This document shows, piece after piece, positions 2,268 through 18,014 of a stretch of 64,000 nt of DNA. Every line of letters begins with the position of its first letter. Within the stretch, counting starts at the first letter, position 1. The DNA lies in assembly GCA_903825285.1 (NCBI GenBank), contig CAIJZY010000007.1, forward strand, positions 62,001 through 126,000, written 5' to 3'. Position numbers and translations under genes: made by a program. The DNA is from an uncultured Opitutia bacterium (lineage in GTDB: Bacteria; Verrucomicrobiota; Verrucomicrobiia; Opitutales; Opitutaceae). The notes under the pieces are model-generated. The model made no database searches. It saw nothing but the letters and a program-made list of their open reading frames with translations, and was not told where the DNA came from.

Positions 2268-4100
2268 TCAGCGGTGAAGCAGCGTCACGTAACGCGCCAA
2301 CGCGACCACGGTGGCGTCATCGAGATATTCGTGGCCGGCCATTGCCGTGCCGGGGACCCCGAACTTGATCAGCCGGGCCAGGGCCACCTCGGGCGCGGCC
2401 TCCCCCGCGCGCAGATGCCGCCACGGCTCATGCTGAAAGTCGGGTGGACGAACCGCGAGCCGCGTGGCCAGTGGACCATCGCCGCGGGCCGAGGGACCAT
2501 GACAGGACGCACACAAGCGCCCAAACTGGCGCTGCGCCTCGGCCGCGGAGTCCGGGTGGCTGAGTGCCGCGGCGTCGGGCTGCCATGCCTCGATCTGGGC
2601 GCGACGCACTTCGAGCGTCGTTTCACCGAGGGAATCCAAATAGGCCACGAGGTCCGCTCCGCGACTGTCACTGTCCTTAAATAACCGCCCATAGCCCGGC
2701 ATCCGGGAGCCGGGCGATAGCGTGCGTGGCGCCACGAAGTGGAGCCGCTGCCACTCGGCCGAGCGCCGGTTGCCCACGTTCGTGAGGTCGGGACCCTGAC
2801 GGCGAATGCCGATCAGCGGCGGCGATTCCGCCAGCGTCTCGGCCAGGGGCCGCGCGGGCCCCCAGCGCACGACGTCCTCGGTCACCCCACGCCGCACGTA
2901 CTGCGAGTGACAGTTGATGCAGCCCTCCGCGATGTAGACCTCGCGGCCGCGTGCGATGGAGGGCTCGTCCGCCCGCGCCGGCGGCGCCAGGAAAAATCCT
3001 CCCACCAGCAGCAGCACGCCGGTCCCGCGCAGTTCGCCGCGACGCACCAGCAGCAGGCCCGCGATCACTGTCCCTGCGAGGGCGACAAACCACAGCGGCA
3101 GGGCGTGCAGGTCCTGCACCATCCCGATGCCGAGGGCCGAACCCACCCACCCCGCCACCGCGAAGAGGATGCCCGCGAGCCACGGCCGCGCGCCCCAGGC
3201 CGGATAATAGACCAACGCCACGGAATACGCCGACACCCCCAGCGTGTACGGCACGCCGGCATAGCCCCCGACCCCGCCCGCGAGCAGTATGTCGGCCAGC
3301 CCAAGCAGCAGCAGCGCCACCAAGATCGTGCCGCCCCAGCGGCGCGCATCGAGTGCCCATCCCGCCAGCACCGCGCCCACCAGATGCGTGAGCGCGTTGC
3401 CGTAAAGCCGCCAGGGGCCCTGCCAGGTCACGTCCCTCAGTCCAGGCGTGTGCTGCAGGACGTAGAAGCCGGCGGAATCGAGCCACACCAGCATCAGGAA
3501 AATCGCGATCCATCCCACGCAACCGCGTCCGGAAAAATCCGGCCCATCCGCGCGCTCCACCGTGTCGGCAGCCAGGAACCCCGCCGCCGCCAGCCCGGCC
3601 CCGGCCAGCATCAGCGCGATCACCGCCTGCACGCCGGGCCTTGCCTCGAACACCGGCGGCAGATTGCTCAGCGCATACGCCAGGCCCGTGCCCAGCCCGC
3701 AGCCCCGGCCCAGCCACCGCGTCCCGAGACTCGCGCGCAGCCGCATGCTGAGAAGAACGGTCGTCCAGCCGAGCCCAACGCCCACGCCGGCCGCCGCCCA
3801 CCAGAGCCACATTCCCCCGGCCGTGGCCAGCGCCGCCGCCATGGCACACCCGCCGAAGCCCGCGGCAAGGGCGCGCCGAGGATTGAGCCCGCTCGCGCCC
3901 GCCGCGAGCAGGCTCCCCGTGATTCCGCCCGCACCCAGCACGCCGAGCAGCAGACACAGCGCAAGCCCGGCGCCCAGCTCGCGGGTGGCGAGCTGCAGGA
4001 AGGCAAATTCGGCGAAGAGGAGAAAATAGCCGTAGGTCGCCGCGATGGCAACGATCGCCGCCACGACAGGCACGGTTCGCGGTTTGGTGCCGCCGTTCAT
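2268..4100 (-). CDS. MFS-like membrane domain fused to a di-heme c-type cytochrome (CcoO-like)
   Basis: 610 residues. Residues ~10-352 form about 11-12 hydrophobic segments with an MFS-like glycine-rich TM1-TM2 region. After TM segments and an AxA-like site (~376) come two haem c domains. The first has CINCHSQYVRR (394-404) and axial-ligand candidate Met467 (SRMPGY), closely resembling CcoO, the mono-haem subunit of cbb3 oxidase. The second has CASCHG (530-535) with Met587 (GTAMAGH), like a soluble class I cytochrome. It is the last gene of a four-gene unit; its ATG overlaps the stop of the oxidase-like gene (ATGA), so the two are probably co-translated. It probably moves electrons to or from that subunit across the periplasm. 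The role of the MFS-like half is unknown. Confidence 0.8.
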   Translation of the reverse strand: MNGGTKPRTVPVVAAIVAIAATYGYFLLFAEFAFLQLATRELGAGLALCLLLGVLGAGGITGSLLAAGASGLNPRRALAAGFGGCAMAAALATAGGMWLWWAAAGVGVGLGWTTVLLSMRLRASLGTRWLGRGCGLGTGLAYALSNLPPVFEARPGVQAVIALMLAGAGLAAAGFLAADTVERADGPDFSGRGCVGWIAIFLMLVWLDSAGFYVLQHTPGLRDVTWQGPWRLYGNALTHLVGAVLAGWALDARRWGGTILVALLLLGLADILLAGGVGGYAGVPYTLGVSAYSVALVYYPAWGARPWLAGILFAVAGWVGSALGIGMVQDLHALPLWFVALAGTVIAGLLLVRRGELRGTGVLLLVGGFFLAPPARADEPSIARGREVYIAEGCINCHSQYVRRGVTEDVVRWGPARPLAETLAESPPLIGIRRQGPDLTNVGNRRSAEWQRLHFVAPRTLSPGSRMPGYGRLFKDSDSRGADLVAYLDSLGETTLEVRRAQIEAWQPDAAALSHPDSAAEAQRQFGRLCASCHGPSARGDGPLATRLAVRPPDFQHEPWRHLRAGEAAPEVALARLIKFGVPGTAMAGHEYLDDATVVALARYVTLLHR

Positions 4101-5359
4101 GTGGCCACCCCTTCATTCGTCGCGCCGCGGGCATCACACCACCACGCCACCGACGCGCCCAGCATGCCCAGGCCCGCGACCAGCCGAAGGCCGTAGATCG
4201 CCTGCGTCCAGGGCGCCGAGTAAAACAGCTCGGCGCCATGGCCGAGCTCGCCCCAGCCGAGGAAGGCCAGCGCCGCGATCTGGACGGCGCACGCGATCTG
4301 CCAGAGCCAGAACCGGCGGAAGCGCCGCCCGGCGCCGAGTTCCTGCAGCACGGCCAGGTTCGCGCTCGTGACCAGTCCCGCCATGGCCAGGTGCGCGTGT
4401 CCGACCATCGCGTTCGTGAACTTCAGCCTCTCTGAGAATCCCGGGAGGAAATTCAGGAGTCCCAGCACCACCAGCAGCACCCACCACGCATAGGCCGCGG
4501 CCCACCAGCGCCGGGCCGCCGCGACGCCTTGCCCGCCGGTGAAATGGAACCAGGCCAGCGGGATCCAGCCCAGCAGCGTGGCGAGGCCGAGGATCTCGGC
4601 GGCCTCGTGATGCGAGGCGTTGCCATGCTCGATGGCCGCGCCCACCAGCGCGGAGAAACCGGCGTAGCCCCAGAACCAAGGCCCGCTGCGGCGCCGCGCC
4701 AGGCCGAGGATTTCCGCCAGCAGCCCGAAGATCACCACGATGCCGAGCGTCGAGAGCAGCAGCCGCGTGCCCGTGGCGCCGCCGCTGTCGGGATTGACGC
4801 TCGGGTAGACGCCGCGGCCGGCGGACCAGTACAGCACGCCCGGCACCGCGAGCAGCACAAGCAGGACGGCGGCGCGGCCGGCATGACCCGAACGGTCGGG
4901 TTCGCCGCGACGGCGCCAGGCGTGGCTGGCCAGCACGGCCCAGAGCACGACCATCGCGAGCGGCAGCAGCGGACGCGTCCAGCCGTGCCATTCCAGGAAC
5001 ATCTTGCCGCTGGATCCGCCGCCGAGCCAGGCCACCCCGCCGAGCAGCAGTGCCAGCGACCACAGCCCGACAGCCACGCGCGCCTGGGCGACGCCGGAGG
5101 GCGGCCGCTCGCCAAGGCACCATTGCAGCAGCACGGCCACCAGCGGCAGCGCGCACCCGCCGTAGAGCTGCCAGTCGAGGTGGAGCGGCACCCACCGGCC
5201 GTAGGTCAGGGGTCCCAGCACGTCGTTGAGGTCCGGCCAAAGCAGCAGCACGGCGAGCCCGACGCCGACGGCATTGGCCGCCACGAGCCAGCCCAGCGCA
5301 TGCCGTGCCGCAATGCCCGCGGCGGTCGGCGCGGCGCGCGCTGTCGTCGGTTCGCTCAC
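4097..5359 (-). CDS. Divergent haem-copper oxidase subunit I-like protein (CcoN/NorB-related)
   Basis: 420 residues, GTG start overlapping the stop of the upstream ATPase gene (GTGA). About 10-12 transmembrane segments. VPLHLDWQLYGG (His60) matches the TM II haem b ligand region of CcoN (LHTN). FTNAMVGHAHLAMAG (His321, His323) matches the TM X HxH that binds both haems in haem-copper oxidases. Histidines 245, 250 and 251 (IEHGNASHH) could represent CuB ligands, but no histidine lies where the TM VI CuB ligand is expected, so the copper site may be incomplete. Shorter than CcoN. It probably works with the CcoO-like cytochrome encoded next. Oxygen, NO or another acceptor, or a non-catalytic quinol/cytochrome link, all remain possible. 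Confidence 0.7.
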   Translation of the reverse strand: MSEPTTARAAPTAAGIAARHALGWLVAANAVGVGLAVLLLWPDLNDVLGPLTYGRWVPLHLDWQLYGGCALPLVAVLLQWCLGERPPSGVAQARVAVGLWSLALLLGGVAWLGGGSSGKMFLEWHGWTRPLLPLAMVVLWAVLASHAWRRRGEPDRSGHAGRAAVLLVLLAVPGVLYWSAGRGVYPSVNPDSGGATGTRLLLSTLGIVVIFGLLAEILGLARRRSGPWFWGYAGFSALVGAAIEHGNASHHEAAEILGLATLLGWIPLAWFHFTGGQGVAAARRWWAAAYAWWVLLVVLGLLNFLPGFSERLKFTNAMVGHAHLAMAGLVTSANLAVLQELGAGRRFRRFWLWQIACAVQIAALAFLGWGELGHGAELFYSAPWTQAIYGLRLVAGLGMLGASVAWWCDARGATNEGVAT

Positions 5360-6033
5360 TCCGCGCTCACCTTTCCATCGCGCACCCGCAGCCGGCGGTG
5401 GCAGGCGTCGGCGAACCGGCGCTCGTGCGTGGCCATCACGACGGCAACGCCTTCCCGGCGCGCCAGGTCCTTCAGCAGGTTGAAAACCGTTTCTCCTGAA
5501 ACCTCGTCGAGCGAGCCCGTGGGCTCGTCGGCCAGCAGCAGGCGCGGGCCGTTCATGAGCGCGCGGCAGATGGCCACGCGCTGACGCTCGCCGCCCGAGA
5601 GATCCTGAATCCGATGACCGAGCCGGTCCGTCATGCCCACCGCGGCGGCAAGGTCGCGCAACCGCGCGTGCGTCGCCCGGGCCGGCCGGCCGTCGGCCAT
5701 GGCCGGGACGCAGAGATTTTCCGCGACGGTCAGGTCGGGGATGAGATTGTGGAGCTGAAAGACAAATCCCAGGTGACGGCGACGCAGTGCCAGCCGGTTG
5801 GCCTCGACCCGCGGGTCCAGGCCGCAGATCTCCAGCTCGCCCTGGTCCGGCAGGTCGAGTCCGCCCAGCAGGTGCAGCAAGGTGCTCTTGCCGGAGCCCG
5901 ATGCGCCCCACAGCGCCACGACCTCGCCGGCCTGCACCTCGAGCGAGACATCGCGCAGCACCGTCACGCGGCCGCCGTCGTACGCCTTCCAGAGTCCCCG
6001 GGCGCGGATCAACTGGACCGGGGTGTCACTCAT
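5356..6033 (-). CDS. ABC transporter ATPase, LolD/MacB type
   Basis: 225 residues from the ATG at 6033. Walker A GASGSGKST (43-51), Q-loop FQLHNLIPDLTV, signature LSGGERQR, Walker B LLLADEPTGSLD, and H-loop MATHERRF. The combination of short length, DEPTGSLD and the HNLIP Q-loop is typical of the LolD/MacB/FtsE branch that powers FtsX-fold permeases rather than solute import. It overlaps the upstream permease by eight bases (ATGAGTGA) and the downstream oxidase-like gene by four, so the ABC pair and the redox proteins form one translationally coupled unit. Confidence 0.9.
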   Translation of the reverse strand: MSDTPVQLIRARGLWKAYDGGRVTVLRDVSLEVQAGEVVALWGASGSGKSTLLHLLGGLDLPDQGELEICGLDPRVEANRLALRRRHLGFVFQLHNLIPDLTVAENLCVPAMADGRPARATHARLRDLAAAVGMTDRLGHRIQDLSGGERQRVAICRALMNGPRLLLADEPTGSLDEVSGETVFNLLKDLARREGVAVVMATHERRFADACHRRLRVRDGKVSAE

Positions 6034-7138
6034 AACGCAGCGCCTCCGCCGGTTGAATGCGCGCCGCGTACCACGCCGGGTAAAGCGCGCCGCCCGCCGC
6101 GGTGAGCAACGCCGTGAGCGCAATGCCGGCCAGCACGACCGGGCCCACGTCGGCCCGCACATAGCCCTGGAACTGCGGCAGCCGCGGCAGCAGCGCCAGC
6201 ACGCCGGCGCCCAGGGTGAAACCCAGGACCAGTCCGGCCGCGGCGATGACAACCGCCTCGCCAAAGATCAGGACCGCCACCTGCCGGTGTGAGAACCCGC
6301 AGACGCGCAGCACCGCGATCTCGCGGATGCGGCTGAAGACGGAGAGCAGCATGGTGTTCGCGACGCCCAGCCCGCCCAGGAGGAACGCGCATAGCCCGAC
6401 CGCCCACGCGGTGGTCTGAAGGATGCGGAACGAGTGGTAGCCCTGGTTGAACTCCCGGTTCTCGAGCGCGATCAGCCGCGGCTGGGCCGACTCCACGGCC
6501 TGCTTGAAGCGCGCGCCGGTCGAGCGGTCGGACAGCTGCACGGCGATGACCGACGAGACCCCCGCGCGATGAAAGTAGGCCTGCGCGTCGCGCAGCGGCA
6601 GGAACACACCACCATCCTCGAAGCCGTTCTCCGTTTTCAGGATTCCGGCCACCCGCAGCTGAATCGGCCCGATCGGCAGCTCGTCGCCGAGGTGGGCGTG
6701 CAGGAACTCGGCCGCCCGGGCGCCGAGGAAGACCTCGCCCGGGTTCCGGCCGAAGTCGTCGCGCTGGCCCGCCAGCCACTCCGCGTGCGCCAAGCGCGGG
6801 TCGTCTGCCTCCACGCCGAAGCACGTGATCACCGGGTAGCCCGGCGAGGAGACGATGCCGAATAGCAGCGGATGCGCCGACGCCACGCCCGGTTGCGCGC
6901 GCAGGGCGGCCAGCTCGTCGTCCTTCACCGAGCTGAAGAAGAGGTCGGAGACGTTCTTCTCCATCACCAGGTAATGGCTGTCGGTGGAGAGGATGTGCTC
7001 AAACATCGTGATCGCGCCGTTGACGACCCCGAGGATCGCCAGCATCGCCGCCACGCCGAAGCCGATTCCGGCCACGCCAATCAGCGCCCGCAGCCGGTGA
7101 CGGCGCAGGTTGATCAGGATGAGGGACAGGAAATGCAT
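6026..7138 (-). CDS. ABC transporter permease, FtsX/MacB fold
   Basis: 370 residues. The topology is that of MacB/LolC permeases: one N-terminal transmembrane helix (~18-40), a ~200-residue periplasmic domain, then three helices at about 240-262, 287-308 and 328-350. The coupling segment RIREIAVLRVCGFSHRQV between TM2 and TM3 is a family signature. Such permeases do mechanical work in the periplasm (lipoprotein release, peptide or macrolide export) rather than channel transport. First gene of the four-gene unit that continues into the haem-copper-like proteins. The substrate is not predictable; coupling to a redox module is unusual. Confidence 0.87.
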   Translation of the reverse strand: MHFLSLILINLRRHRLRALIGVAGIGFGVAAMLAILGVVNGAITMFEHILSTDSHYLVMEKNVSDLFFSSVKDDELAALRAQPGVASAHPLLFGIVSSPGYPVITCFGVEADDPRLAHAEWLAGQRDDFGRNPGEVFLGARAAEFLHAHLGDELPIGPIQLRVAGILKTENGFEDGGVFLPLRDAQAYFHRAGVSSVIAVQLSDRSTGARFKQAVESAQPRLIALENREFNQGYHSFRILQTTAWAVGLCAFLLGGLGVANTMLLSVFSRIREIAVLRVCGFSHRQVAVLIFGEAVVIAAAGLVLGFTLGAGVLALLPRLPQFQGYVRADVGPVVLAGIALTALLTAAGGALYPAWYAARIQPAEALRYE

Positions 7139-7363: not shown

Positions 7364-7942
7364 TCAAGCCGCCGGCACCGAGCCAACCAGATGAAAGTGC
7401 ACGACGACCAGGGGATCCACCTTGAGCAGGGCAAATTTGCGGATGACCGGCAGACCGAACAACCGCGTGTCCACCACGGCCTCGCCGTCCACGGTCAGCG
7501 CGCGGGCTTCCTGGTGCAGCGTCGCGGTGAACTCGATGGGACGGGTCACGCCGTGCAGCGTGAGCGCGCCCTTCACGAGCGACTTGCCGCCGCCCTGGTC
7601 CGCCAGGCTCGCCAGCGTGAAGGCGCCGTCCGGGAAATGGTCCGTCTGCTGCCACTCGTTCATCTCGCGGTCGCGCTTGTCATTGCCGGTTTTCACGTCC
7701 GCAAAATGAAAGGCAAACCGGGCGGCGCCGACGCGGCCGGTCGCGGGATCGGCGGTGATGGCCGCCTCGTAGTTCACGAGCCGGGCGACAAAGGAGTCGA
7801 CCGTGGCCTTGACGGAGATCTCAACGCGCGAGGCCGCGCGGTCGATGGCCACAGGGCCCTCGGCCACGCGCAGGGGGGCGGCCAGCAGGCCGCTCGTTAG
7901 GAGGCCGATCCAGAGGACACCGAGTTTGAGGAGTTTTGACAT
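7364..7942 (-). CDS. YceI family periplasmic lipid-binding protein
   Basis: 192 residues with a signal peptide (about 1-22, ending LLAA). The rest is a single YceI lipocalin-like domain: an early IDRAASRVEISVKATVDSF strand, the NDKRDREMNEWQQTDHFPDG loop, and the late LTLHGVTRPIEFTATL segment, all characteristic. YceI proteins bind amphiphilic molecules such as polyprenoids in an extended barrel. It lies 225 bases upstream of the ABC/redox unit in the same direction, with repeat DNA between, so co-transcription is uncertain. YceI genes are often found next to cytochrome or electron-transfer genes, which fits the location. Confidence 0.88.
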   Translation of the reverse strand: MSKLLKLGVLWIGLLTSGLLAAPLRVAEGPVAIDRAASRVEISVKATVDSFVARLVNYEAAITADPATGRVGAARFAFHFADVKTGNDKRDREMNEWQQTDHFPDGAFTLASLADQGGGKSLVKGALTLHGVTRPIEFTATLHQEARALTVDGEAVVDTRLFGLPVIRKFALLKVDPLVVVHFHLVGSVPAA

Positions 7943-8006: not shown

Positions 8007-9620
8007 TCAATTCGGACCGGTCCCGCCGGGCATCCGCACCTGAACCTCCGGCTGATTGATAAGCTGGTCCGGCGAGCACCATTCGGCTCCGATCAGGTAG
8101 GCGGCCCGGGCCTGCTTGGTGAGTTCGAGGAACTCGGGATCGCGGTGCAGGCTGGCAAACATGTAGTCCTCCCGCGCTTCCTTCATTTCCATCGCGCGGA
8201 CGGCCATGTAGCGCTCGTAGTCAGTGAAGTGGCGGCGAAGGAGTTCCATCGCCTTCGCGCGGTCCCCGACCTGCGCCCAGATCGCGGCCAGGTTGTAACT
8301 CGCCTCCAGCACCGATTCGTTCTGCTGCGCGATCTTGATCGCCTCCTCCTTGTGCCCAGCGGCGGCAAGATAGACGGCGGCAAAGATTCGGTTGTAGGTG
8401 TCGTACGGATCCAACGCCAGGGCCTGGCGCATGTAGCCGGCCGCCTTTTCCTGCTGCCCCTCGGAGAACCAGTAGACCGCGAGGTTGCGGTAGGTGATCG
8501 GCAGCGGATACGTGGCGATGGATTGCTGGAACATCCGCAGGCCCGCGGTGTAGCTGCCGGCGTGGATCGTCATCTTGCCGAGGCCGTGCAGGGCGACGGC
8601 ACGGGCAATCTGGTCGGACGGCTGGCTGAGAATTTGGCGAAATACGCGGCCGGCCTTGTCCCATTCCCCCGTCTGATGCCGGTAAAGTTCGCCCAGGTAG
8701 CGGAGCGCGGTCGTGTCGGCCGGGTCGCTCTCGACGGCCTCGCGGTAGAAGCCCTCGGCCACGCGGTAATGACCCGCGAGTTCCGCCTCGAGGCCCTGGC
8801 CCAGCAGCGGTTCCACCTCGCGGTGCGCATTGGCCGTGTCCGCGTCGGCCAGCGCGTCGGCCCCGAGGCGGTCCACGTCGGTCTGGCTCACCTCGATGCC
8901 CAGCTTGCGGAGGGCCTTGGCGGCCTTCTTGCCGAGGCTGGGAGCCAGGCAGCGCGCGGCCCAGACCTTCTGGAGATCATCGGCGGCGGCCTTGTCGCCG
9001 GCCTTGGCCCGCTTCGAGGCGGCGTCAAGCAGCGCCTGCAGCGCCTTTTCCCGCCGACTCAGCTCCGATTGTAGGGCCTGCTCCATGGCGCGAGCACCCA
9101 GCATCTCCTGGGGCCGATTCACGAGCCGCTGAACCTCCGTGCCGTCGGGATCAGCAAGCACCACGGCCTCCACGCCCGGGCCAATCTTGTAGTGTTGGCG
9201 TAGCGCGGTGTTGTCCACCGGCACCAGCACAGGGATCACGCAGCGCTCGTTGGCGGCGGTGAGGACCTTGGATCCATGCAGCCGGGAATCACGCGCGACC
9301 TCGATCGAGGAGGGAAACCAGATCACCAGCAGCGAGGCGCCCTGGATCTCGGCCAGGCCATTGCGCTGGTCCGCGAGCGTCCACGGCACGCGGTAGATGT
9401 TGCCGGAGTTGCCGCCGATGCCCGGGCTCATGGGCAGGCGGGAGTCGACCTGAGGCAGGTCGGGCATCATGGGCTGCGAGGCGCCCATGTTGGATGCCGG
9501 CACCGCCCCGCCCCGGCCCCCGCCTCCGCCGCCCCCGCAGGTGGCCTGGACGAGCGGCGCCAAGGCGACCGCCACGATAAGGAGCAACGCGGACCCGAGC
9601 CGGGCAGTGGGACGATGCAT
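8007..9620 (-). CDS. Exported thioredoxin-like / TPR repeat protein
   Basis: 537 residues from the ATG at 9620. Signal peptide 1-26 (SALLLIVAVALAPLVQA), then a glycine-rich linker. Residues ~75-150 resemble a thioredoxin fold lacking the CxxC motif (SLLVIWFPSSIEVARDS, later VLADPDGTEVQRLV). A charged helical region follows, then about six to seven TPR-type repeats from ~280 (for example YRVAEGFYREAVESDPAD, YRNLAVYWFSEGQQEKAAGYM). It probably serves as a periplasmic scaffold. The frame stays open beyond 9620, but that part has no signal peptide and shadows the divergent gene. The next gene downstream, yceI, is 64 bases away. Confidence 0.72.
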   Translation of the reverse strand: MHRPTARLGSALLLIVAVALAPLVQATCGGGGGGGRGGAVPASNMGASQPMMPDLPQVDSRLPMSPGIGGNSGNIYRVPWTLADQRNGLAEIQGASLLVIWFPSSIEVARDSRLHGSKVLTAANERCVIPVLVPVDNTALRQHYKIGPGVEAVVLADPDGTEVQRLVNRPQEMLGARAMEQALQSELSRREKALQALLDAASKRAKAGDKAAADDLQKVWAARCLAPSLGKKAAKALRKLGIEVSQTDVDRLGADALADADTANAHREVEPLLGQGLEAELAGHYRVAEGFYREAVESDPADTTALRYLGELYRHQTGEWDKAGRVFRQILSQPSDQIARAVALHGLGKMTIHAGSYTAGLRMFQQSIATYPLPITYRNLAVYWFSEGQQEKAAGYMRQALALDPYDTYNRIFAAVYLAAAGHKEEAIKIAQQNESVLEASYNLAAIWAQVGDRAKAMELLRRHFTDYERYMAVRAMEMKEAREDYMFASLHRDPEFLELTKQARAAYLIGAEWCSPDQLINQPEVQVRMPGGTGPN

Positions 9621-9842
9621 GGAGGATTTGGTCCGGATGATCGCCTGCCTGGCAAAGAAATCAGGGCAAGGGAGACTGACCGGGGGGAGACAAGTGGGAT
9701 ACAGGCACACAAAAAATGTTCCCAGTCCTTTCTTAGGACTGACCCCGGGCGCAGGGATTTCTGCATCGCCCGCGAGGGAAATCCGGTTGAGTGTCATAAG
9801 GTGCGCCGCCGGTGACCGGCCGCCGTGTTTCGCCCCCAACCC

Positions 9843-12812
9843 ATGACCCGAGACCCCTCCGCGTCCTCTCCCGCCGCTGATTTTGCCTATCGCACGTTCC
9901 GGCCGGACGAGGAGACCGGAGTCCACCGCTGGGACACCGCGGTAGCGGCGGAGTGCACCGTGCCACTCGCGGGACCGCCGGCGGGGGCAAAGTCCTGGGC
10001 CCTCGCGCTGCCGGTGCATGCCAGCCGCGCGACGATGCTGCTGGTCGAGGTCACGCTGGACTGCGATGCCACGCCCGCCGCCGCCGTGGCCTGCGGCTAC
10101 CACACGAGCTTCGTCGTCGAATGGGCGGGCTGGAACACCCTGCCCTTCACGCTCTCATCCCTCACCCGCATCGGCGAGCCGACCGGGCCCGCGTCCATCC
10201 GGCGCCTCCGGCTGAAGGCGGTGAGTGCGACGTTCGCGGGCACCGTGCTCGAACTGGGCCGTGCCACCTGGCCCGACGACTCGCCGCTCGTCCCGGTCAC
10301 GCCCTACGAGGACATGGTCGTGAATTTCCTGAGCCCGCGGCTGTGGGACCGCGCGGACTGGACGCACACCGGCCCCGCGCTGCTGCCCGCGGGCGAGGAG
10401 TCCCTGGACGTGGCGTGGATGTACGCCAACCTGCGCTATCTCCAGAAGCCCGGACGGCGTCACCAGACCGCCTACACCCGGCGGATGAACGTGGACCTCA
10501 CGCCGTACCAGGCGGTCACCGTCTTCACCGCGACCGATCTCCGCGCGAACTTCAGCCTGATCCTCGAGCTTGACGGGGTCGCGGTGCGCGCGATCGACCG
10601 GCGCCGCGGGCTGGGCGGCGGCGACGAGATCCGCGCGGAGATTCGCGGACGGCGGCTGACCGCCCTCACGCTCGAGCTCGAGCAGGCCGAGACGGAGAGC
10701 CACGAGGCCCTCGACGTCCAGGTGGCCACGTCCATCCGGTGGATCCTGCTGGAGCGGACAGGCACGGATCCCGCGCAGATCGGACAGGCCTGGGGCATCC
10801 CCGCCATCCCGCCGCCGGACCGAGTCGAGCCATTGGAAACCGGCATCCTCCCCGTCGGGCTGATGATCGGCCGCGAGGATTTCCTGCGGCTGCGCGACGA
10901 GGCGAAGCGCGGCGGGCGGCGCAAGCAACTCGCCGACGAGATCCTCGCGGAGGCGGCCACGCATCTCGATTACCATCCCGAGCGGTACGCCGGGCGCTAC
11001 CTGCCCGTGGACCTCGGCAACCAGGGTTGCGAGCGGCGGGTGTCACCGTGGGACCAGATGTACGACGTGAACAGCTGCATGGTGTACAGCGCGCTGGCCT
11101 ATGCGCTGACCGGCGACCTCCGCCACGGCCAGGCGGCGCGGCGCGGACTGTTCACGGCACTCCGCTGCACGACCTGGCAGGGAGGCTTTCCCAGCCGCAT
11201 CCCCGCCGGCCTGCCCGGATATCGGGCGCCGTTCATTGAAAGCGCCACCAGCGAGTCGGTCGCGGTCTGCTACGACTTCATCTACCCGCTCCTCTCCGAC
11301 GCCGAGCGCCGCGAGGTCGAGGATGGGCTCTACGAGAAAGGGCTCCCGTGGATCGACATGTACCTCCGCTATTATGGCGAGGGCTACCTCCTCAACAGCA
11401 ACCAGGGCGCGGTGTACGTCGCCGGCCTCGTGTTCGCCGCGCTGGTGGCGCGCCGCAGCCATCCCGACGTGGACGCCGTGCTTGAGCGCACGCTCCAGTG
11501 GTTCCCGCGGATGCTGAACAACTATTTCAAGGCGACCGGCGCCACCAACGAGGGCCCCGGCTACTGGGAGTACACGGCCGACAACACCGTCACGGCCCTG
11601 CTGGCCATCGCCCGCCACCGCGGCGGCGCGGTGCGCGACCACGCGCCGGCCCACCTCGGGAAGACGATCGACTACATCCTCCACCTCCGCTCGCTGGCGC
11701 GGACGCGGCTCTCGTTCCTCCCGCTCGGCGACAACATCGAGCGCATCGGCTTCGCGTTCATGAACAGCTCGCTCCTGTTCTTCGCGCGGCACTACGACGA
11801 CCCGCACGCGCTCTGGCTGTGGCGGAAGTTCTTCGCCGACCGGGCCAACCCGCCCGGCAGCGACTTCTTCGGCAAGCGCATGACCGGCGCCTATGCGCTG
11901 TCGGGACTCAAGGAGTTCATCCTCCACGTGGACGGCGACCCGGCCCCGCCGAAACTGCCGCCGGCGCACCGGTTCGAGGGCTGCGACCGCGTGACGCTCC
12001 GCACCGGATCCGAGCACGGCGACCTGCTGTTCCTCTTTGAGGGCGGGCCGCAGACCTTCGACCACACCCACAACGACAAGGGCCAGTTCATTCTCGAGGC
12101 CTTCGGCGAGCGGCTCGCGGCCGACCCGGGCGTCATCAAGTACCAGGACCCCGCGCACGTGTTCTACAAGGGCACGCCGTACCACAACCTCGTCACCCAC
12201 CGCGGCCGCGAGCAGGACTACCGCGATGCGGCGCACGCGGTCGTGCTCAACGAGCTGAGCTGCGGCGGGCCGTGCGACTTCCTCGACGCCGACCTGCGCA
12301 ACTCGTACCGGAGCCTCTCGCGCTACCGCCGGCGCATCGTGTTCGTCCGGCCGCATTATTTCCTGGTCCTCGACGACGTCGTGGCCGACGAGCCCGGCCT
12401 CGAGTGGAACTTCCACTCCGGCGTGCCGATCCGGTCACTCGACCTGGCCGCGGGCCTCGTGCGCTTCGAGGGCGAGTCGGCCGGGCTCGTGCTCGCGCTC
12501 GGCTGCCTGGAGCCGCTGACGGCCGCCACCGGCGAATACGCCGCGGACGGCACGGTGCTGAGCCACAACCTCGTCCTGAGCACCCCCACGCCCAGCGCCA
12601 CGCTCACCCTCGCCGCGTTGCTCGTCCCCTACCCGCGCACCCGCGGCGTGCCGGAAGTCCGGGTCCACCGCGCCCAGGGCGCCGTCGAGTTCGAGCTGTC
12701 CCATGCGGATGGCACCGACCGCGTGTGCTGCGGGTTCCAGACCGGCAGTGAACCGGTGATCACGGTCGCGCGCAAAACCGCGAACAAGGAGACGGTTATT
12801 TTTAACCGCTAA
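9843..12812 (+). CDS. Heparinase II/III-like polysaccharide lyase, large (989 aa)
   Basis: The ATG at 9843 gives 989 residues; a GTG at 9825 is an alternative. No signal peptide is visible. Residues 1-330 look like beta-sandwich modules; ~340-690 form an alpha/alpha toroid with NNYFKATGATNEGPGYWEYT (~560-578). The beta-sheet domain has FDHTHNDKGQFILEAFGERL (~737-756), the conserved His/Asp metal and catalytic motif of the heparinase II/III (PL12/15/17/21) clan. Such enzymes cleave uronic-acid polysaccharides by beta-elimination. First of three related but dissimilar genes in a row before an MFS transporter. Lack of a signal suggests cytoplasmic action on imported oligosaccharides. Confidence 0.78.
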   Translation: MTRDPSASSPAADFAYRTFRPDEETGVHRWDTAVAAECTVPLAGPPAGAKSWALALPVHASRATMLLVEVTLDCDATPAAAVACGYHTSFVVEWAGWNTLPFTLSSLTRIGEPTGPASIRRLRLKAVSATFAGTVLELGRATWPDDSPLVPVTPYEDMVVNFLSPRLWDRADWTHTGPALLPAGEESLDVAWMYANLRYLQKPGRRHQTAYTRRMNVDLTPYQAVTVFTATDLRANFSLILELDGVAVRAIDRRRGLGGGDEIRAEIRGRRLTALTLELEQAETESHEALDVQVATSIRWILLERTGTDPAQIGQAWGIPAIPPPDRVEPLETGILPVGLMIGREDFLRLRDEAKRGGRRKQLADEILAEAATHLDYHPERYAGRYLPVDLGNQGCERRVSPWDQMYDVNSCMVYSALAYALTGDLRHGQAARRGLFTALRCTTWQGGFPSRIPAGLPGYRAPFIESATSESVAVCYDFIYPLLSDAERREVEDGLYEKGLPWIDMYLRYYGEGYLLNSNQGAVYVAGLVFAALVARRSHPDVDAVLERTLQWFPRMLNNYFKATGATNEGPGYWEYTADNTVTALLAIARHRGGAVRDHAPAHLGKTIDYILHLRSLARTRLSFLPLGDNIERIGFAFMNSSLLFFARHYDDPHALWLWRKFFADRANPPGSDFFGKRMTGAYALSGLKEFILHVDGDPAPPKLPPAHRFEGCDRVTLRTGSEHGDLLFLFEGGPQTFDHTHNDKGQFILEAFGERLAADPGVIKYQDPAHVFYKGTPYHNLVTHRGREQDYRDAAHAVVLNELSCGGPCDFLDADLRNSYRSLSRYRRRIVFVRPHYFLVLDDVVADEPGLEWNFHSGVPIRSLDLAAGLVRFEGESAGLVLALGCLEPLTAATGEYAADGTVLSHNLVLSTPTPSATLTLAALLVPYPRTRGVPEVRVHRAQGAVEFELSHADGTDRVCCGFQTGSEPVITVARKTANKETVIFNR

Positions 12813-12960
12813 TTTTCGCTCATTCCCACTAATGGTTCGGAACCCAACCAATCCGGATTGGGATCGGATTAGCGGGAAATTCGCGAACATTAGCGGTTCC
12901 ACCCTGATTGTTCCGGCACTTGGGCGTTGAACGTTCGGCGTGGAACGTTGAGCGTTCAAT
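12813..12960. repeat. Intergenic repeat cluster (inverted ATTAGCGG-type and ACGTTGAACGTT-type)
   Basis: The gap between the first two heparinase-like genes carries two repeat types. The first is an interrupted inverted pair: aaccgctaattttcgctc near 12804 and cgaacattagcggttcc near 12886, flanking aatccggattgggatcgg. The second is ggcgttgaacgttcggcg followed by tggaacgttgagcgttc (12923-12957). Both are typical of dispersed non-coding repeats, and translation in any frame gives no family-like sequence. Confidence 0.6.
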
Positions 12961-12976
12961 TTCCTCCCCCCTCCCC

Positions 12977-15316
12977 ATGCACTTCACCCGGATCAACAGC
13001 GCCGAGGCGATCTTCGAGACCTTTTTCGACAAGCAGCTCCGGGAGATGGAGGCCTGGACCTGCGACGCCCCCGGTGCGACCGGCGTCAACCGCGTCCCGG
13101 GCTGGGCGTTCATCACCTTCCAGTGGACCCTCCCCGCGCCCGACGGCCTCGTGCACCGCATGCACCGCACGTACGCGTCGCCCGTGCCCTGCGCGGAATA
13201 CGACCGCCTGCTGGTGTGTCTCAACGTCCCCGAGGAAACCGTCATGACCATCCGCGCCGAGACCGATGCCGGCGTGCGCGAGCGCACCTCGGCGCCCGCG
13301 GGCGCCACGCGGCGCGAGGAGGCGGTCGAGCTCAAGGGCGCGAAGGAGATCCGCGCGCTCACGATCGAGGTCCGCAGCCCGCTGCGCCAGGCCGGCTCGG
13401 GCTGGCTGCTCTGGATCGGGCTGCAGCACTCGGAGCGGTTGAAGCACCACCTCAGGCAGTGGGAGGGATATGACGAGAGCTGGGACAAATATCTCCAGCC
13501 GCCCGAGTTCGAGCCCACCTTCGCCCCCACGTACGGGATCATCGTCACGGCCGAGGAGCTCGAGGGCGTGCGCCGGGAATTCGCGGACTCGCCCGTCACG
13601 CGCGAGCTCCGCTTCGTCGCCGAGCGCGCACGCGGCGAGCATCCGGAGGCCCAGATCGGCGAGAACCTGAATTTCTGGAGCGCGAACGTCTTCCGCCGCG
13701 AGCGCGACATCGGCAAGATGCTCTCCCAGCACGGCGGCAACGCCGCGCAGGCCGGCGTGCTCTGGCGCGACAAGGAGCTGTGCCGGCTCGCCGCGCGCTA
13801 TGCGCTCTGCCTCGTGCACTGCGACCACTGGGAGGACATCTTCTTCGCCCACATGCGCGGCAGCGCGTGGGACCAGCGCGGGTTCGTGCAGGCGATCGGG
13901 ACGTGGGACTGCGCGCTGGCGCTCGACCTGTGCGGCGAGTGGTTCACGCCCCTCGGCCGCGAGCTGGTGCTCCGCCGCATCGCCACCGAGGCCCACGGCG
14001 CGATGTGCCACGCCTCGTGGTGGTGGGAGTACATGTACCACACCAACCAGATGGCGTGGATCTCGCCCGCGCGCATCTACGGCCTCCTCGTGCTGGAGCG
14101 CACGATGCCGCTGCACCACGAGAACTACGCCAAGCCCGAGGTCTCGCGCGTGGCGCCGCACACCGACCTCGCCTGGCAGAACCTCGCCGAAAACATCAGC
14201 CACGCGCTGCTCCCCGACGGCGGCTACCTCGAGGGCCCGACCTACTTCACCTGGACCGCGCGGCAAGCCATCCTCGGCGCGCAGCTCTACGCGCGCAGCC
14301 GCGGGCGCGACCCGCGCGAGTTCGTCGCGCCGTCGCTCCTCCGCACCGGCCGGCTGGCCGAGATGCTCTACTCCACCGACGAGGGCCAGGAGATGATCCT
14401 GATCGGCGACGCGGTCATCACCGTCGGCGAGGGCGCCGCGATGCTCGCCTGGCTCCTGCCCCAGTCGCACTGGGTCACGATTTTCCGCAAGCAGCTCCAG
14501 CGCGCCGGCGCCGCGCCGTTTCTGCTCGCGCTGCAGCTCGCGCGCGAGGTGCCGGCCCAGGGGCCGGACTTCCTGCCGTTCCTGGAGATGACCGACACCG
14601 GCATGATGTGCTCGATGCGGCGGCTCGGACCCGAGTGGGTGAAGCTCTTCCTCATGGGCAACAAGGCCGGCGGCGACCACCAGCACGAGGACAAGGGCAG
14701 CTTCGTGCTCGAGTGCGCCGGCGACAGCTTCGCGTTCGACTTTGGCGTGGTGGACTATGCCAATCCGGTCACCGAGCTCCTCAAGCACTGCCAGCGTCAC
14801 AACATGCTCACGCCCTGGAGCGACGACGCGCGGCCGCGGCCGAAAAACCCGATCTTCGTGGACGTGAAGCCGCACGGCACGGGCGACGCGACGCAGTTTC
14901 ATGCCAAGATGGACCTCCGCGGCGGCTGGGAGGGGTGGTACGAGCGCTGGGACCGTTCCTGGGACTCGCCGACGCCCGACACGCTGGTCATCACCGACGA
15001 GTGGGCGGTGGCACAGGGGCGCGGCGTGGTCTTCCACTGGACGACCCAGCTCCCGATGCGCCTCGCGGGCAACCGCGTGATCATCGAGGGCCGCCGGGCC
15101 ACGGCCGAGCTGACGATTCCCGCGGGCGTCGAGGCCAAGATCGAGCATCTGCCGCTGCAGGATCCCCGCCGCACGGCGGTCGAGCAGGGCCGCCGCGACC
15201 TGATCCAGTTCGGCTGGAAGCTGGCCGAGACCCAGCCGGTGCTCACCCTCCGCCAAGCCGGCCGCAGCGGCACGCTGCGCATCGCGGTGAAGTTCACACT
15301 GAAGCCCGTAGGCTGA
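12977..15316 (+). CDS. Heparinase II/III-like protein (779 aa)
   Basis: The ATG at 12977 (MHFTRINSAEAIFETFF) is chosen; the open frame reaches back to 12908 but there it translates repeat DNA. 779 residues without a signal peptide. It has the toroid motifs WWWEYMYHTNQMAW (~352-365) and DGGYLEGPTYFTW (~413-426), and the sheet-domain motif DHQHEDKGSFVLECAG (~566-581) followed by FDFGVVDY. The N-terminal ~190 residues form a separate domain ending in GSGWLLWIGLQHSE, which has a counterpart (VWLYWIGCAHVQ) in the next gene. Likely an intracellular uronate oligosaccharide lyase; no known subfamily can be assigned by eye. Confidence 0.72.
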   Translation: MHFTRINSAEAIFETFFDKQLREMEAWTCDAPGATGVNRVPGWAFITFQWTLPAPDGLVHRMHRTYASPVPCAEYDRLLVCLNVPEETVMTIRAETDAGVRERTSAPAGATRREEAVELKGAKEIRALTIEVRSPLRQAGSGWLLWIGLQHSERLKHHLRQWEGYDESWDKYLQPPEFEPTFAPTYGIIVTAEELEGVRREFADSPVTRELRFVAERARGEHPEAQIGENLNFWSANVFRRERDIGKMLSQHGGNAAQAGVLWRDKELCRLAARYALCLVHCDHWEDIFFAHMRGSAWDQRGFVQAIGTWDCALALDLCGEWFTPLGRELVLRRIATEAHGAMCHASWWWEYMYHTNQMAWISPARIYGLLVLERTMPLHHENYAKPEVSRVAPHTDLAWQNLAENISHALLPDGGYLEGPTYFTWTARQAILGAQLYARSRGRDPREFVAPSLLRTGRLAEMLYSTDEGQEMILIGDAVITVGEGAAMLAWLLPQSHWVTIFRKQLQRAGAAPFLLALQLAREVPAQGPDFLPFLEMTDTGMMCSMRRLGPEWVKLFLMGNKAGGDHQHEDKGSFVLECAGDSFAFDFGVVDYANPVTELLKHCQRHNMLTPWSDDARPRPKNPIFVDVKPHGTGDATQFHAKMDLRGGWEGWYERWDRSWDSPTPDTLVITDEWAVAQGRGVVFHWTTQLPMRLAGNRVIIEGRRATAELTIPAGVEAKIEHLPLQDPRRTAVEQGRRDLIQFGWKLAETQPVLTLRQAGRSGTLRIAVKFTLKPVG

Positions 15317-15624
15317 ATTTTCCCCGCGGATAACGCGGATGGACACGGATGCGGCGGGCTCGTTTCCGCGCCGCCGCGCTTCCGCGATCAAAGCTGGCGG
15401 ATTGAATATTTTCACACCGAAGAGCGCGAAGCACGCGAAGAGTGATATCTCCGCGCTTCGTTTTCTTCGTGGGAAGAATGCCGGCTGAGTGGATCGCGGA
15501 GGCGCGGAGGCGAAGCGGAGGGTTGATCGGCCTTCGCGCGCTTTGCGATCTTCGCGGTGAAAATTTAACCACGGCCCCTGAGCGCGCGGTTGCCTTCGGG
15601 CATGTTTTCTCTCATCAGATTGCC
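15317..15624. repeat. Intergenic repeat cluster (CGCGGATAACGCGGATG and GAAGCACGCGAAG types)
   Basis: This 308-base gap has no gene. It contains ccgcggataacgcggatgg (15327-15345), the gaagagcgcgaagcacgcga stretch (15419-15438), its reverse-type partner cttcgcgcgctttgcgatct (15532-15551) ahead of tcgcggtgaaaa, and gcggaggcgcggaggcgaag. The open frame of the next gene runs through it, but the product there has the composition expected of repeat DNA. Confidence 0.6.
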
Positions 15625-17997
15625 ATGGCCGTTGCCCCCGCCCGGTTACCGGTGCCGTTGAACGAAGCCGAGGCCATTATCGAGGCCTTCTGGGACGAGC
15701 ACCTTTCGCCCCTTACCCGCTACACGCTGCGGGCCGCCCGAACCGCTCGACGCAAGGGCAAACGCCCGCCGCCGCTTGGGCCGCTGCCGCCCGACCAGGT
15801 CCGCGCCAGCCAGTTCTGGTGCTGGGTGACGCTCGCCTGGGAGCGTCCGGCCGGAACCGCGGCGAAAAGCCGCGGCGCGACGCCCGTCCTGAGCTTCGAG
15901 CGCCGCGTGCGCGTCAGCCTCGCCGGCCAGGACCGCCTCGTCGTGCGCGCGGCGTGCCCCAAGCATGTTTTCCTGACCGTCATCGCCATGATCGACGGCG
16001 TGGAACGCACCGTGGTCAGGTCCCAGCCAGGACGCAGCAAGGCGCACGAGTACGAGGGGCCGATCCGCGGACGCACCCTCGAGCGGATCCGGATCGAGGT
16101 CTCAACCACTCGCGACGGCGCCGACGAGGTGTGGCTCTACTGGATCGGCTGCGCGCACGTCCAGCGCCGCCGGACAATGCTCGCGCGCCCGACGCCCTTC
16201 ACCCCCGACTGGGCCGGCTGGCTGCAGCCCGCGGGCTTGCGCGGCAAGCTGGTTCCCCGGTTCGGCTTCTTCTTCGACGCGCAAGAGCTGGTCGCGCTCC
16301 GGCGCAAGGCCCGCTCGCCGCTCTACCGTCCGCTGATGGACCAGCTCCGCGCGCAGGCGCGCAGCGCGATGACCGACCGGCGCACCCCCGAGTCGCAGAT
16401 CGGGCGCTTCCTCGCATCGGGCGACGTCTGGTCCATCCAGTCCCGCGAGCGGGACGCCGGCACCCGCTCCTTCCACATCGACGCCCCCGTGTGCGCGTTT
16501 GTCGGGCTGATTGACCAGGACCCGGAGTGCCTGCGCTTCGCGGCGCGGGTCGCGGTCTGCCTCGCGCACACCACCACCTGGGCGCCGCACTTCATGCAGA
16601 GCTTCCCCGGCTCGACCTGGGACACGCGCGGCTTCCCCGAGTCGCATGTCTGCACCGGGCTCGCGCTCGTGCTCGACTGGGCGGGCGCGTGGTTCACGCC
16701 GTCGGGCGAGCACCTCGTCCGCTACGCCATCGCCACGAAGGGACTGCCCCGGGCCCGCGAGGCGTTCCTTCAGTACGAGTACATGTGGAACTGCAACCAG
16801 CATCACATGGTCGGCCTTGGGCGCCTGCTCGGGCTGCTCGTGCTGCAGCGCGCATGGCCGCGCACGATGGCGGACATCGACGTGTTCGAGCGCGACTTGT
16901 ACGAGATCATCGACCGCTACATCCAGGCCGACGGCTCGACCCACGAGGGCGTGGGCTACTGGTCGAACAGCTTCCGCTCGACCCTGCCCGCATTGGCGGC
17001 GCTGGCCCGCCTGCGCGGCAAACGGCTGATAGACCTCGTGCCGCCCAAGCTGCGGACCATGGACCGCTACATCGCCTCGCTCCTCTCCACGGCCGGCGAG
17101 CCCGGCGCGTACCACCCGATCGCGGACACCGTCGGGGACGCGGTGGCGGTGGACGCCATCTCGATGATGGCCGCGGCGCTCGACGCGCCCCTGTGGCGGG
17201 GCCTGATGGCGGACTGCCTGCGGCACGGCAAGATCGTGAAGCGCGATTGGACCTTCGACGGCTGCTTCGCGATCATCCACGGGCCCGAGCGCTGCCCGAA
17301 GGAGGATGTCAGCCTCCCCGCGTTCACCAAGCTGGCGAAGGCTGGCACCGTCTCCAGCTTCCGGCGGCTCGGCCGCGCGGGCGTGCGGCTCTTCCTCGTC
17401 GGCGCGATGGAGAACGCCGGGCACTGTCACCGCGACAAGGGCTCGTTCATCCTCGAGGCCGGTGGCGAGCCGTTCGCGATCGACCGCGGGGCCGTGCCAT
17501 ACGAGGACGCCGCGAACCTCCCGTTCATGAAGAGCGAGGTCTCCCACAACCTCGCGGTGCCCACGGGCTGCGGGCAGGAGAACCCCTCGCCGCATGCGTC
17601 CGACTGGATCGCCCGGGGCAACGCGACCTCCCTGACCGCGACGATCGACACGGGCCGCACCTGGCTGCCGCCCGTGCTTGCCTGCCGCCGGCGGCTGCAC
17701 TCGCCCACCCCCGGGCGCATTGAGATCACCGATGAGTTCGAGCTCGCCGAGCCGCTGGCCGTGACCTTCTACCTCCACTCGCCGCTGCCGATGCGCTGCG
17801 AGGGCGGGCGCGCCTCGATCCGCGGCCGGGCGCTCACGCTGGACGTCGCGGCCGACTGGGCCGTGGCAGGCACGGCGGAGCCCTGCGGCGTGAACTGGAG
17901 CTACACCCCCATACACCGCCTTGCGCTCGCCTCGGCCCCGGCGCGCCGCCACCGTCTCGTCACCGTGCTCACCCTCCGGCCGGGCCGGCGCGGCTGA
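15625..17997 (+). CDS. Heparinase II/III-like protein (790 aa)
   Basis: The ATG at 15625 (MAVAPARLPVPLNEAEAII) is preferred because upstream codons lie in repeats. 790 residues, no signal peptide. Motifs parallel the preceding gene: VWLYWIGCAHVQ, QYEYMWNCNQHHM (~385), ADGSTHEGVGYWSN (~434-447) and AGHCHRDKGSFILEAGGE (~597-614) followed by AIDRGAVPY. Overall similarity to the preceding product looks low outside these motifs, so this is an old divergence rather than a recent duplication. It ends 17 bases before the MFS gene, probably the same transcript. Confidence 0.72.
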   Translation: MAVAPARLPVPLNEAEAIIEAFWDEHLSPLTRYTLRAARTARRKGKRPPPLGPLPPDQVRASQFWCWVTLAWERPAGTAAKSRGATPVLSFERRVRVSLAGQDRLVVRAACPKHVFLTVIAMIDGVERTVVRSQPGRSKAHEYEGPIRGRTLERIRIEVSTTRDGADEVWLYWIGCAHVQRRRTMLARPTPFTPDWAGWLQPAGLRGKLVPRFGFFFDAQELVALRRKARSPLYRPLMDQLRAQARSAMTDRRTPESQIGRFLASGDVWSIQSRERDAGTRSFHIDAPVCAFVGLIDQDPECLRFAARVAVCLAHTTTWAPHFMQSFPGSTWDTRGFPESHVCTGLALVLDWAGAWFTPSGEHLVRYAIATKGLPRAREAFLQYEYMWNCNQHHMVGLGRLLGLLVLQRAWPRTMADIDVFERDLYEIIDRYIQADGSTHEGVGYWSNSFRSTLPALAALARLRGKRLIDLVPPKLRTMDRYIASLLSTAGEPGAYHPIADTVGDAVAVDAISMMAAALDAPLWRGLMADCLRHGKIVKRDWTFDGCFAIIHGPERCPKEDVSLPAFTKLAKAGTVSSFRRLGRAGVRLFLVGAMENAGHCHRDKGSFILEAGGEPFAIDRGAVPYEDAANLPFMKSEVSHNLAVPTGCGQENPSPHASDWIARGNATSLTATIDTGRTWLPPVLACRRRLHSPTPGRIEITDEFELAEPLAVTFYLHSPLPMRCEGGRASIRGRALTLDVAADWAVAGTAEPCGVNWSYTPIHRLALASAPARRHRLVTVLTLRPGRRG

Positions 17998-18014
17998 CGT
18001 CCCCTGGTTTCCGC

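Follow-up and report, generated by a model that had tools for sequence, protein, structure and literature searches.

The cbb3-type oxidases combine CcoN, a subunit I with a twelve-helix fold, and CcoO (FixO), a mono-heme c subunit. In CcoN, the low-spin heme b is ligated by a histidine of helix II and the second histidine of the helix-X HxH motif, the first histidine of this motif serves the high-spin heme, and CuB is bound by three histidines, one from helix VI and two from helix VII. A different redox protein accompanies some YceI proteins, lipocalins in several structures of which octaprenyl lipids or ubiquinone-8 were found: in Burkholderia cenocepacia, the YceI lipocalin BcnA and the cytochrome b561 LcoA protect from lipid peroxyl radicals, and the available part of the paper presents the re-reduction of BcnA-bound ubiquinone as a proposal (PMC9113575). 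Here, we analyze a gene set in a 64,000-nucleotide stretch of DNA from an uncultured Opitutia bacterium (contig CAIJZY010000007.1; hereafter the window). Approximately seven genes, conserved in three phyla, link a CuB-incomplete oxidase relative with functions in isoprenoid synthesis and ATP-driven transport and with a lipocalin. We tentatively propose that the set forms a redox system for isoprenoid lipids in the cell envelope, in which a CcoN/CcoO-derived complex serves as the redox partner in place of cytochrome b561. This reading is the simplest account of all parts of the set, and we hold it as possible rather than probable.

The set is similar to BcnA–LcoA in that a yceI gene lies beside the gene of a b-type membrane redox protein and in that redox cycling of a YceI-bound prenylquinone is proposed. 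It is unlike BcnA–LcoA because the redox protein of the latter is a cytochrome b561 and not an oxidase-derived complex, and the accessible text on BcnA–LcoA makes no mention of an ATP-binding cassette (ABC) transporter pair, a resistance-nodulation-division (RND) transporter, a polyprenyl synthase or c-type hemes. In the window, open reading frame (ORF) and start analysis identifies four minus-strand genes from 7138 to 2268 with successive overlaps of 8, 4 and 4 bases (Table 1). They encode a permease, an ATPase, a protein of CcoN fold and a fusion of a major facilitator superfamily (MFS) fold with FixO and cytochrome c domains, the families that an earlier note on this DNA had assigned to them. 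The yceI gene precedes the permease gene by 225 bases on the same strand. The window carries a reduced version of the set without the polyprenyl synthase and small membrane protein genes found in most relatives, and the related loci L047 and L050 are reduced likewise (loci are given L numbers and genomes G numbers). No Rfam family matches the window at gathering scores, and promoter and terminator scans of the window did not resolve the operon limits.

Table 1. Positions of the genes, domains and candidate ligand codons of the locus in the window
Feature	Position	Strand	Remarks
YceI-family protein, first gene of the set	7364..7942	-	PF04264, 2.8e-18; N-terminus hydrophobic and signal-peptide-like by eye
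Permease, FtsX/MacB type	6026..7138	-	ATG, 370 aa; MacB periplasmic core domain and FtsX C-terminal domain
ABC ATPase, LolD-like	5356..6033	-	ATG, 225 aa; starts 8 bases inside the permease gene end
CcoN-fold (heme-copper oxidase subunit I-like) protein	4097..5359	-	GTG, 420 aa; 4-base overlap with the ATPase gene
His60 codon, aligned with the helix-II heme b ligand of CcoN	5180..5182	-	His 94/94
His250 codon, may derive from the helix-VII pair of CuB histidines	4610..4612	-	His 90/94, Asn 4/94
H321-A-H323 codons, helix-X HxH motif	4391..4399	-	His321 94/94, His323 81/94
Fusion of MFS-fold membrane half, FixO/CcoO-type heme c domain and class-I cytochrome c domain	2268..4100	-	ATG, 610 aa; 4-base overlap
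MFS-fold half of the fusion, approximately residues 1-370	2991..4100	-	Foldseek
FixO/CcoO-like heme c domain, residues 384-477	2670..2951	-	PF02433, 6.6e-26
Second cytochrome c domain of the fusion, residues 520-605	2286..2543	-	PF00034, 2.3e-12

How widely is this set conserved? We examined 99 loci, made up of 19 loci, 79 from a scan of named genomes and the window's own (L046). In this collection, a scan with the family alignment confirmed 121 stretches, and the results rest on the 80 that were kept as 79 loci; the single CcoN-like protein as a query gave 20 pattern matches in the same collection, none of which was confirmed. L092, whose CcoN-like frame is shorter than 370 residues, was dropped and four duplicates were removed, leaving 94 non-redundant loci, of which 62 have adequate flanks (at least 4.8 kb upstream and at least 5 kb downstream). 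The 79 scan loci come from Verrucomicrobiota, Acidobacteriota and Bdellovibrionota, plus L093, a locus that bears the title Rhodanobacteraceae but falls among Acidobacteriota, so that its contig is probably misbinned. Isolates that carry the set include Terriglobus roseus, Edaphobacter modestus, Acidipila rosea and Haloferula luteola. In the typical arrangement, yceI is followed by the genes of the polyprenyl synthase, permease, ATPase, CcoN-like protein, a small membrane protein that weakly resembles DUF4345 and the MFS–FixO–cytochrome c fusion, after which a response regulator and a kinase often come. A search for the gene order, the check that the earlier note had called for, found it in loci of several phyla, which makes chance adjacency untenable.

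Among the 62 loci, the FixO-type cytochrome is present in all (60 within 9 kb), the MFS half and the second cytochrome c domain in 58 each (56 within 9 kb for both), yceI in 56 (within 9 kb and on the same strand), the permease in 56, the synthase in 55 and the small protein in 52. A raw ATPase count of 59 includes weak matches to other ABC ATPases in L031, L032 and L098, and 56 is the fair figure. In 46 loci, yceI, synthase, permease and FixO all stand beside the CcoN-like gene. The evolutionary distances of eight genes correlate at 0.66-0.93 across the 49 loci that have all eight, with 0.93 for permease versus CcoN-like protein, values that partly reflect shared ancestry and come with no unlinked control gene; the tree of the CcoN-like family is a quick tree. 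In 387 Verrucomicrobiota genomes, the CcoN-like protein occurs in 20 and a permease orthologue (E<=1e-70, a threshold of our choice) in 18. Both are found in 17 genomes, the CcoN-like protein only in three (G169, G181 and G038), the permease only in one (G155) and neither in 366, corresponding to a Fisher p of 1e-25 in a statistic that ignores genome relatedness. Thus, the conservation of the ABC pair together with the CcoN-like and CcoO-like parts as a set is real, and no known, named respiratory complex that matches this set was found. The set is nevertheless patchy: both the permease orthologue and the CcoN-like protein are missing from three genomes of the same genus (G060, G348 and G372).

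Two earlier suggestions held only in part. The four-gene composition is real but incomplete, as it missed YceI, the synthase was not visible in the window, and the MFS half is optional, being absent from four of the 62 loci (L031, L032, L035 and L062); the second cytochrome c domain is also missing in four. The proposed dependence of a redox complex on the ABC pair agrees with the conservation of the set but is not strict, because six of the 62 loci keep the CcoN-like protein and FixO without a permease in the locus. One of these six, L040, has the ABC pair on another contig: in genome G215, the CcoN-like and fusion genes lie on the L040 contig, the ABC pair on L167, and yceI and the synthase on L168. 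The parts are thus kept even when they are separated. In G155, the permease, the ATPase, yceI and a free-standing MFS protein remain, the CcoN-like protein was not found in the genome, and FixO was not found in the stretches examined. By eye, yceI and the permease are separated in L166 of this genome by the genes of a ferredoxin-type protein, a b-type membrane protein and a multiheme cytochrome (8266-18795), and the same module lies near the set in L035 (13336-17962), from the same Opitutaceae-family genus. These two genomes suggest an exchangeable redox partner around a lipid-transport core.

The CcoN-like protein is recognized by its fold. Its sequence gives only a COX1 match below the Pfam cut-off (E 0.071), and a sequence search against the PDB returned nothing meaningful (best E 0.2). 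The AlphaFold2 model (mean predicted local distance difference test score, pLDDT, 85.5) consists of 12 long helices, the subunit I architecture of cbb3-type oxidases. CcoN is its top Foldseek match (E 2.9e-9), and the structural match (VIA) has a Z of 28.1 with a root-mean-square deviation of 4.1 over 389 residues, followed by cNOR with a Z of 26.6. Because a profile comparison of the family alignment with CcoN is weak by probability (hhalign, 22.9%, E 9e-4), the relationship to CcoN rests on the fold evidence.

Alignment of the 94 non-redundant sequences to true CcoN locates the ligand positions. His60 of helix II and His321 are invariant, and His323 is present in 81 sequences, so that the helix-II histidine and the helix-X HxH motif are complete in 81/94, including the window protein. 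The other 13 sequences, 12 of them from the Acidobacteriota branch, have Leu, Ile, Phe or Asp at position 323. In 12 loci (L078, L087, L091, L093, L096, L104, L106-L108, L110, L113 and L114), the second helix-X histidine is replaced by Leu, Ile or Phe while His60 is kept, and exactly these 12 carry a helix-VI QLES motif with its Glu, a coupled change at the heme site. The CuB positions are preserved less well. The helix-VI CuB histidine aligns to a gap in all 94 sequences; His250 (90/94) and His251 (66/94) may be remains of the helix-VII pair, with hhalign and MAFFT in disagreement on His250; and all three CuB histidines occur together in none of the 94. A histidine at helix-VI position 198, one or two places from the CuB column, is found only in L074, L077 and L079, all of which have Asn250, as if the two positions face each other. 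Judged from this alignment, the CcoN-like family keeps the heme-ligand positions and has no canonical CuB site. Since no complete CuB site exists, the complex is, on sequence grounds, not an oxygen reductase of a known type. We reject its identity as a true cbb3 oxidase for the same lack of a three-histidine site in every sequence. Nitric oxide reductases of the cNOR and qNOR types have an FeB site of three histidines and a conserved Glu. We also reject this identity, given that no sequence has the three histidines and that a helix-VI Glu appears in the Acidobacteriota branch only (12/94).

Conservation within the CcoN-like protein is skewed to one side of the membrane. With a topology taken from the homology to CcoN and with conserved defined, by our choice, as at least 95% of the 94 sequences, 50 conserved positions lie in the periplasmic half and five in the cytoplasmic half (chance p 1.8e-8). 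When only helix positions are considered, the numbers are 33/150 and 5/147. When the threshold is lowered to 80%, 18 CcoN relatives used as a control show 14 periplasmic versus 19 cytoplasmic positions, whereas three family samples of 18 give 52:17, 52:17 and 49:18; mean identity is 37% in the control versus 40-42% in random family samples. This control is mixed, as it contains distant oxidases besides true CcoN, and its alignment is imperfect, with histidines at the aligned ligand columns in only 13-15 of the 18. CcoN of Opitutales alone was dropped as a control because it is too uniform (83% mean column identity). The skew argues for a periplasmic working face of the CcoN-like protein and a substrate at the outer face, and the scarcity of conserved residues on the cytoplasmic side argues against proton uptake for oxygen chemistry.

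This skew also bears on the idea that the complex is a terminal reductase for another small oxidant (nitric oxide, peroxide or lipid hydroperoxide), acting with a b3-type heme and without a complete copper site while the ABC pair, YceI and the synthase serve envelope repair. Such a reductase would fit the closeness of cNOR behind CcoN in the structural comparison, the invariance of His321, the position of His250 at or near the former CuB, the helix-VI Glu of the Acidobacteriota branch and the two c-type hemes, which would provide electron input as in cbb3. However, no His or Glu is conserved family-wide in the helix-VI segment, the three histidines never occur together, conserved cytoplasmic-side residues, which proton uptake would lead one to expect, are few, and the polyprenyl synthase is left unexplained. 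We consider such a reductase unlikely.

The fusion protein would add an electron-transfer part. Its C-terminal half matches FixO and cytochrome c in Pfam, and its FixO domain corresponds to the mono-heme c subunit of cbb3 oxidases, here fused to an MFS-fold domain. Among the extracted relatives, the FixO-type domain has GCxxCH in 87/87 and S-x-M-P-x-Y in 82/87, and the second domain has CxxCH in 83/83. The N-terminal membrane half has no Pfam MFS match; its fold is recognized in the model (pLDDT 81.8; Foldseek hit 6zgs, E 3.5e-6). In three loci, L036 (G251), L039 (G327) and L042 (G307), the CcoN-like and MFS–cytochrome genes lie in one open frame of about 1,120-1,150 codons, and the small membrane-protein gene spans the join in another frame, which may be a fusion over an embedded gene or a chance frame. 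The overall likeness to CcoN–CcoO thus comprises the fold, the helix-II and helix-X histidine positions, an adjacent FixO/CcoO-type part with heme and Met ligand motifs and an extra heme c domain as in CcoP. In contrast to CcoN–CcoO, the set has an incomplete CuB site, a conservation skewed to the periplasm, only a sub-threshold COX1 profile match, a CcoO part fused to an MFS fold and lipid-related gene surroundings, and no separate CcoP or CcoQ was noticed.

What does the MFS half contribute? CcoA-like (CalT) MFS proteins are copper importers with MxxxM and HxxxM motifs, and, according to the available part of the source, copper import by CcoA serves cbb3 (PMC6362234). In 17 aligned proteins, the membrane half has no invariant or near-invariant Met beyond the start Met, and in the window protein the residues LVGA come after its invariant His239. 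CcoA-type copper import is rejected because MxxxM and HxxxM are not conserved. The same absence weakens a sensor model, in which the CcoN/CcoO-like complex would signal the state of respiration, copper or the envelope to a neighboring two-component system with the ABC pair as effector. Regulator and kinase matches occur within 9 kb in 31 of the 62 loci and on the same strand in 24, counts of tblastn matches that need not represent one pair throughout, and the pair of L026 best fits the heavy-metal, CusRS-like models TIGR01386/TIGR01387, below the cut-off (the regulator, kinase, synthase and RND transporter were each checked against NCBIfam with one protein). The copper supply of cbb3 by an MFS importer would also suit a sensor. 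Nonetheless, such a pair is absent from the neighborhood of half of the loci, and two heme c domains on one chain exceed the needs of a sensor, which makes this role distinctly unlikely.

A further possibility is that the set is not an enzyme but serves the biogenesis of the true cbb3 oxidase or of cytochromes c, with CydDC-like export and CcoA-like copper import. The genome does have a true ccoN elsewhere, as a check proposed in the earlier note revealed (C53:72603-74000, 640.5 bits versus a cut-off of 583.15), and MFS and ABC parts lie beside a CcoN/CcoO paralogue. Yet G060, G348 and G372 have a true ccoN and neither the CcoN-like protein nor the permease orthologue, and the preserved heme-ligand positions and the heme motif of the FixO partner also speak against a purely assisting role. 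We regard a biogenesis function as highly improbable. The genome contains further oxidases: C53 also encodes a strong COX1 protein (9957-11300), and C12 a distant third oxidase. In L043 (G000:C12, 1-6427), a divergent oxidase subunit I and a CcoO-like protein follow alternative complex III-like genes by eye.

YceI and the polyprenyl synthase as members of the set suggest that an isoprenoid lipid links its parts. The window protein belongs to the YceI family (67.2 bits versus a gathering score of 23.7). The yceI gene lies ahead of the CcoN-like gene in 49 loci and behind the cytochrome genes in seven, six of which are from the Acidobacteriota branch; it thus remains linked to the set even where its position changes. 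Cytochrome b561 adjoins yceI in L056 and L057, an arrangement reminiscent of BcnA–LcoA, and in L060 it precedes the synthase at the end of the contig; a tblastn search with the b561 of L056 matched only these three of the 99 loci and none in the window locus, a result of one query that a distant b561 could escape. The synthase motif DDLPxMD[DN] is present in 69 of 78 extracted sequences, and a looser, permissive Asp-rich pattern in all 78. The L026 synthase best fits short-chain farnesyl/geranylgeranyl synthase models, below the cut-off. Quinone-type genes occur in a few loci. L081 (TIGR00543, above the cut-off) and L082 (Pfam only) have an isochorismate synthase gene next to yceI and the polyprenyl synthase, a MenH-like gene below the cut-off directly precedes ccoN in L040/L117, and in L094 a UbiA-type prenyltransferase gene (TIGR01475, above the cut-off) follows the RND gene.

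The transporter of the set is exchangeable. An RND/MMPL transporter is found in five of the 94 loci, all of them without the permease at its usual place. Among loci with adequate flanks, it occurs in 0/56 with the permease versus 3/6 without it (Fisher p 5e-4). In L076 and L094, which have short flanks, the synthase stands directly before ccoN, and thus the permease is gone from its usual place between them. The RND transporter replaces the ABC pair in some loci. HpnN, the hopanoid RND transporter of the MMPL/HAE3 type, is the closest named model for the L098 protein, although the score (310 bits) is below the HpnN cut-off. A metallo-beta-lactamase (MBL)-fold hydrolase gene and then the RND gene lie downstream of the cytochrome genes in L081 (13571-16661), L094 (4709-7755), L098 (13602-16676) and L037 (3668-6654).

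These genes also allow a model in which the heme complex oxidizes a terpenoid derived from a prenyl diphosphate, which the ABC pair or the RND transporter then exports. The synthase, present in 55 of the 62 loci, suits this model, and a PAP2 phosphatase (9/62) and an MBL-fold hydrolase (24/62) could release and process the prenyl alcohol. Against it, no terpene cyclase or carotenoid gene was recognized among the recurrent neighbors, a weak negative as only some clusters were annotated, and we know of no enzyme with the heme-copper oxidase fold that hydroxylates lipids. Terpenoid modification is accordingly a very doubtful function of the complex.

The ABC pair itself resembles Lol- and MacB-type transporters. 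Pfam finds MacB_PCD (1.4e-21) and FtsX (2.5e-17) in the permease and ABC_tran (1.1e-34) in the ATPase. The best NCBIfam models of the ATPase are two LolD models (NF008639, 213.8 bits versus a cut-off of 360; TIGR02211, 213.3 versus 307.75), and that of the permease is lolCE (TIGR02212, 81.8 versus 362.45). Although these are the best named matches, membership of LolCDE is rejected since all of the scores are far under the curated cut-offs, and the window set differs from LolCDE in having one permease gene instead of LolC and LolE and, in our own analogy, YceI in the place of LolA. The MacB_PCD domain is shared with MacAB–TolC; unlike in that system, the ATPase and permease are separate genes, and no MacA-type adaptor was recognized among the recurrent neighbors, the annotation of which covered part of the ORFs. 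The permease has a mean pairwise identity of 57.5% in the 49 loci with all eight genes. The ABC signature motif is found in 84 of 86 extracted ATPases, and the two misses, L031 and L032, are weak matches to an unrelated sugar-type ATPase; a Walker A pattern (42/86) was too strict, and its count was not used.

Taken as an isoprenoid-lipid redox system, the set could operate in the following manner. The locus-encoded polyprenyl synthase would supply the chain for a prenyl lipid, of which a prenylquinone is the likeliest candidate; in the window, where the synthase is lost from the locus, the enzyme encoded at 39657-40745 could serve. The LolD-like ATPase and the FtsX/MacB-type permease, or the HpnN-like RND transporter in some loci, would lift the lipid from the inner membrane, and the lipocalin-like YceI would carry it in the periplasm in the way LolA carries lipoproteins. 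The descendant of cbb3 CcoN–CcoO would exchange electrons at the periplasmic face between its putative b and c hemes and the lipid, which may be kept reduced, for example as an envelope antioxidant, or used as a shuttle. The lipid handled would be an isoprenoid, probably a prenylquinone. In a more specific version, which we think unlikely, a heme-copper oxidase descendant has become a periplasm-facing lipid oxidoreductase: the ABC or RND transporter extracts prenylquinone, YceI ferries it, and the b/c-heme complex charges or discharges it, creating a lipid-borne electron shuttle between the inner and outer membranes.

Several observations weigh against this lipid redox proposal. Not all sequences retain an intact low-spin heme site, since His323 is lost in 13 of the 94. 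In the examined stretch, L031 and L032 carry no permease and no RND transporter, and no permease orthologue was found in their genomes. YceI is missing in six of the 62 loci, and seven, including the window, are without the synthase; six of these seven keep the permease, and L040 has both elsewhere in its genome. A close cluster-type synthase was not found in the genome of the window, where the best match (33% identity) is the enzyme at 39657-40745, probably a housekeeping enzyme. The RND loci largely belong to one clade and do not represent five independent replacements. Quinone-type genes are rare among the 62 loci, with menF-like genes in two (L081 and, weakly, L088), menH-like genes in two (L040 and, at 9 kb, L038) and UbiA in one, on the opposite strand. 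Finally, the regulator and kinase on the same strand in 24 loci could mean metal or envelope stress instead.

In searches of open-access full text aimed at the gene set, we found no description of it; its novelty, within that literature, lies in the composition of the system and not in a demonstrated mechanism. If the isoprenoid-lipid reading is true, the loading and reduction of YceI-bound periplasmic isoprenoids, for which the available part of PMC9113575 offers a proposal only, becomes testable, and a heme-copper oxidase scaffold would be used for something besides gas reduction, possibly as part of a new route that electrons take through envelope lipids. Should the proposed mechanism prove wrong, the family can still easily be taken for a cbb3 oxidase, and aerobic respiration could then be predicted wrongly.

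Two further features lie near these genes. A small secreted-looking protein (FKANDQHGQ in L084) has relatives near the set in 23 of the 99 loci, such as L080, L084 and L089; it is redoxin-like by eye, has no Pfam match (L084 tested) and occurs in 16 of the 62 counted loci, in 15 of them on the opposite strand. In the window, three consecutive large proteins encoded on the plus strand (9825-17997) have matches to the heparinase II/III C-terminal domain, with a score below the cut-off for the middle protein, and are followed by an MFS transporter gene (18015-19439). The heparinase II/III genes and the transporter (9825-19439) likely form a polysaccharide-lyase locus.

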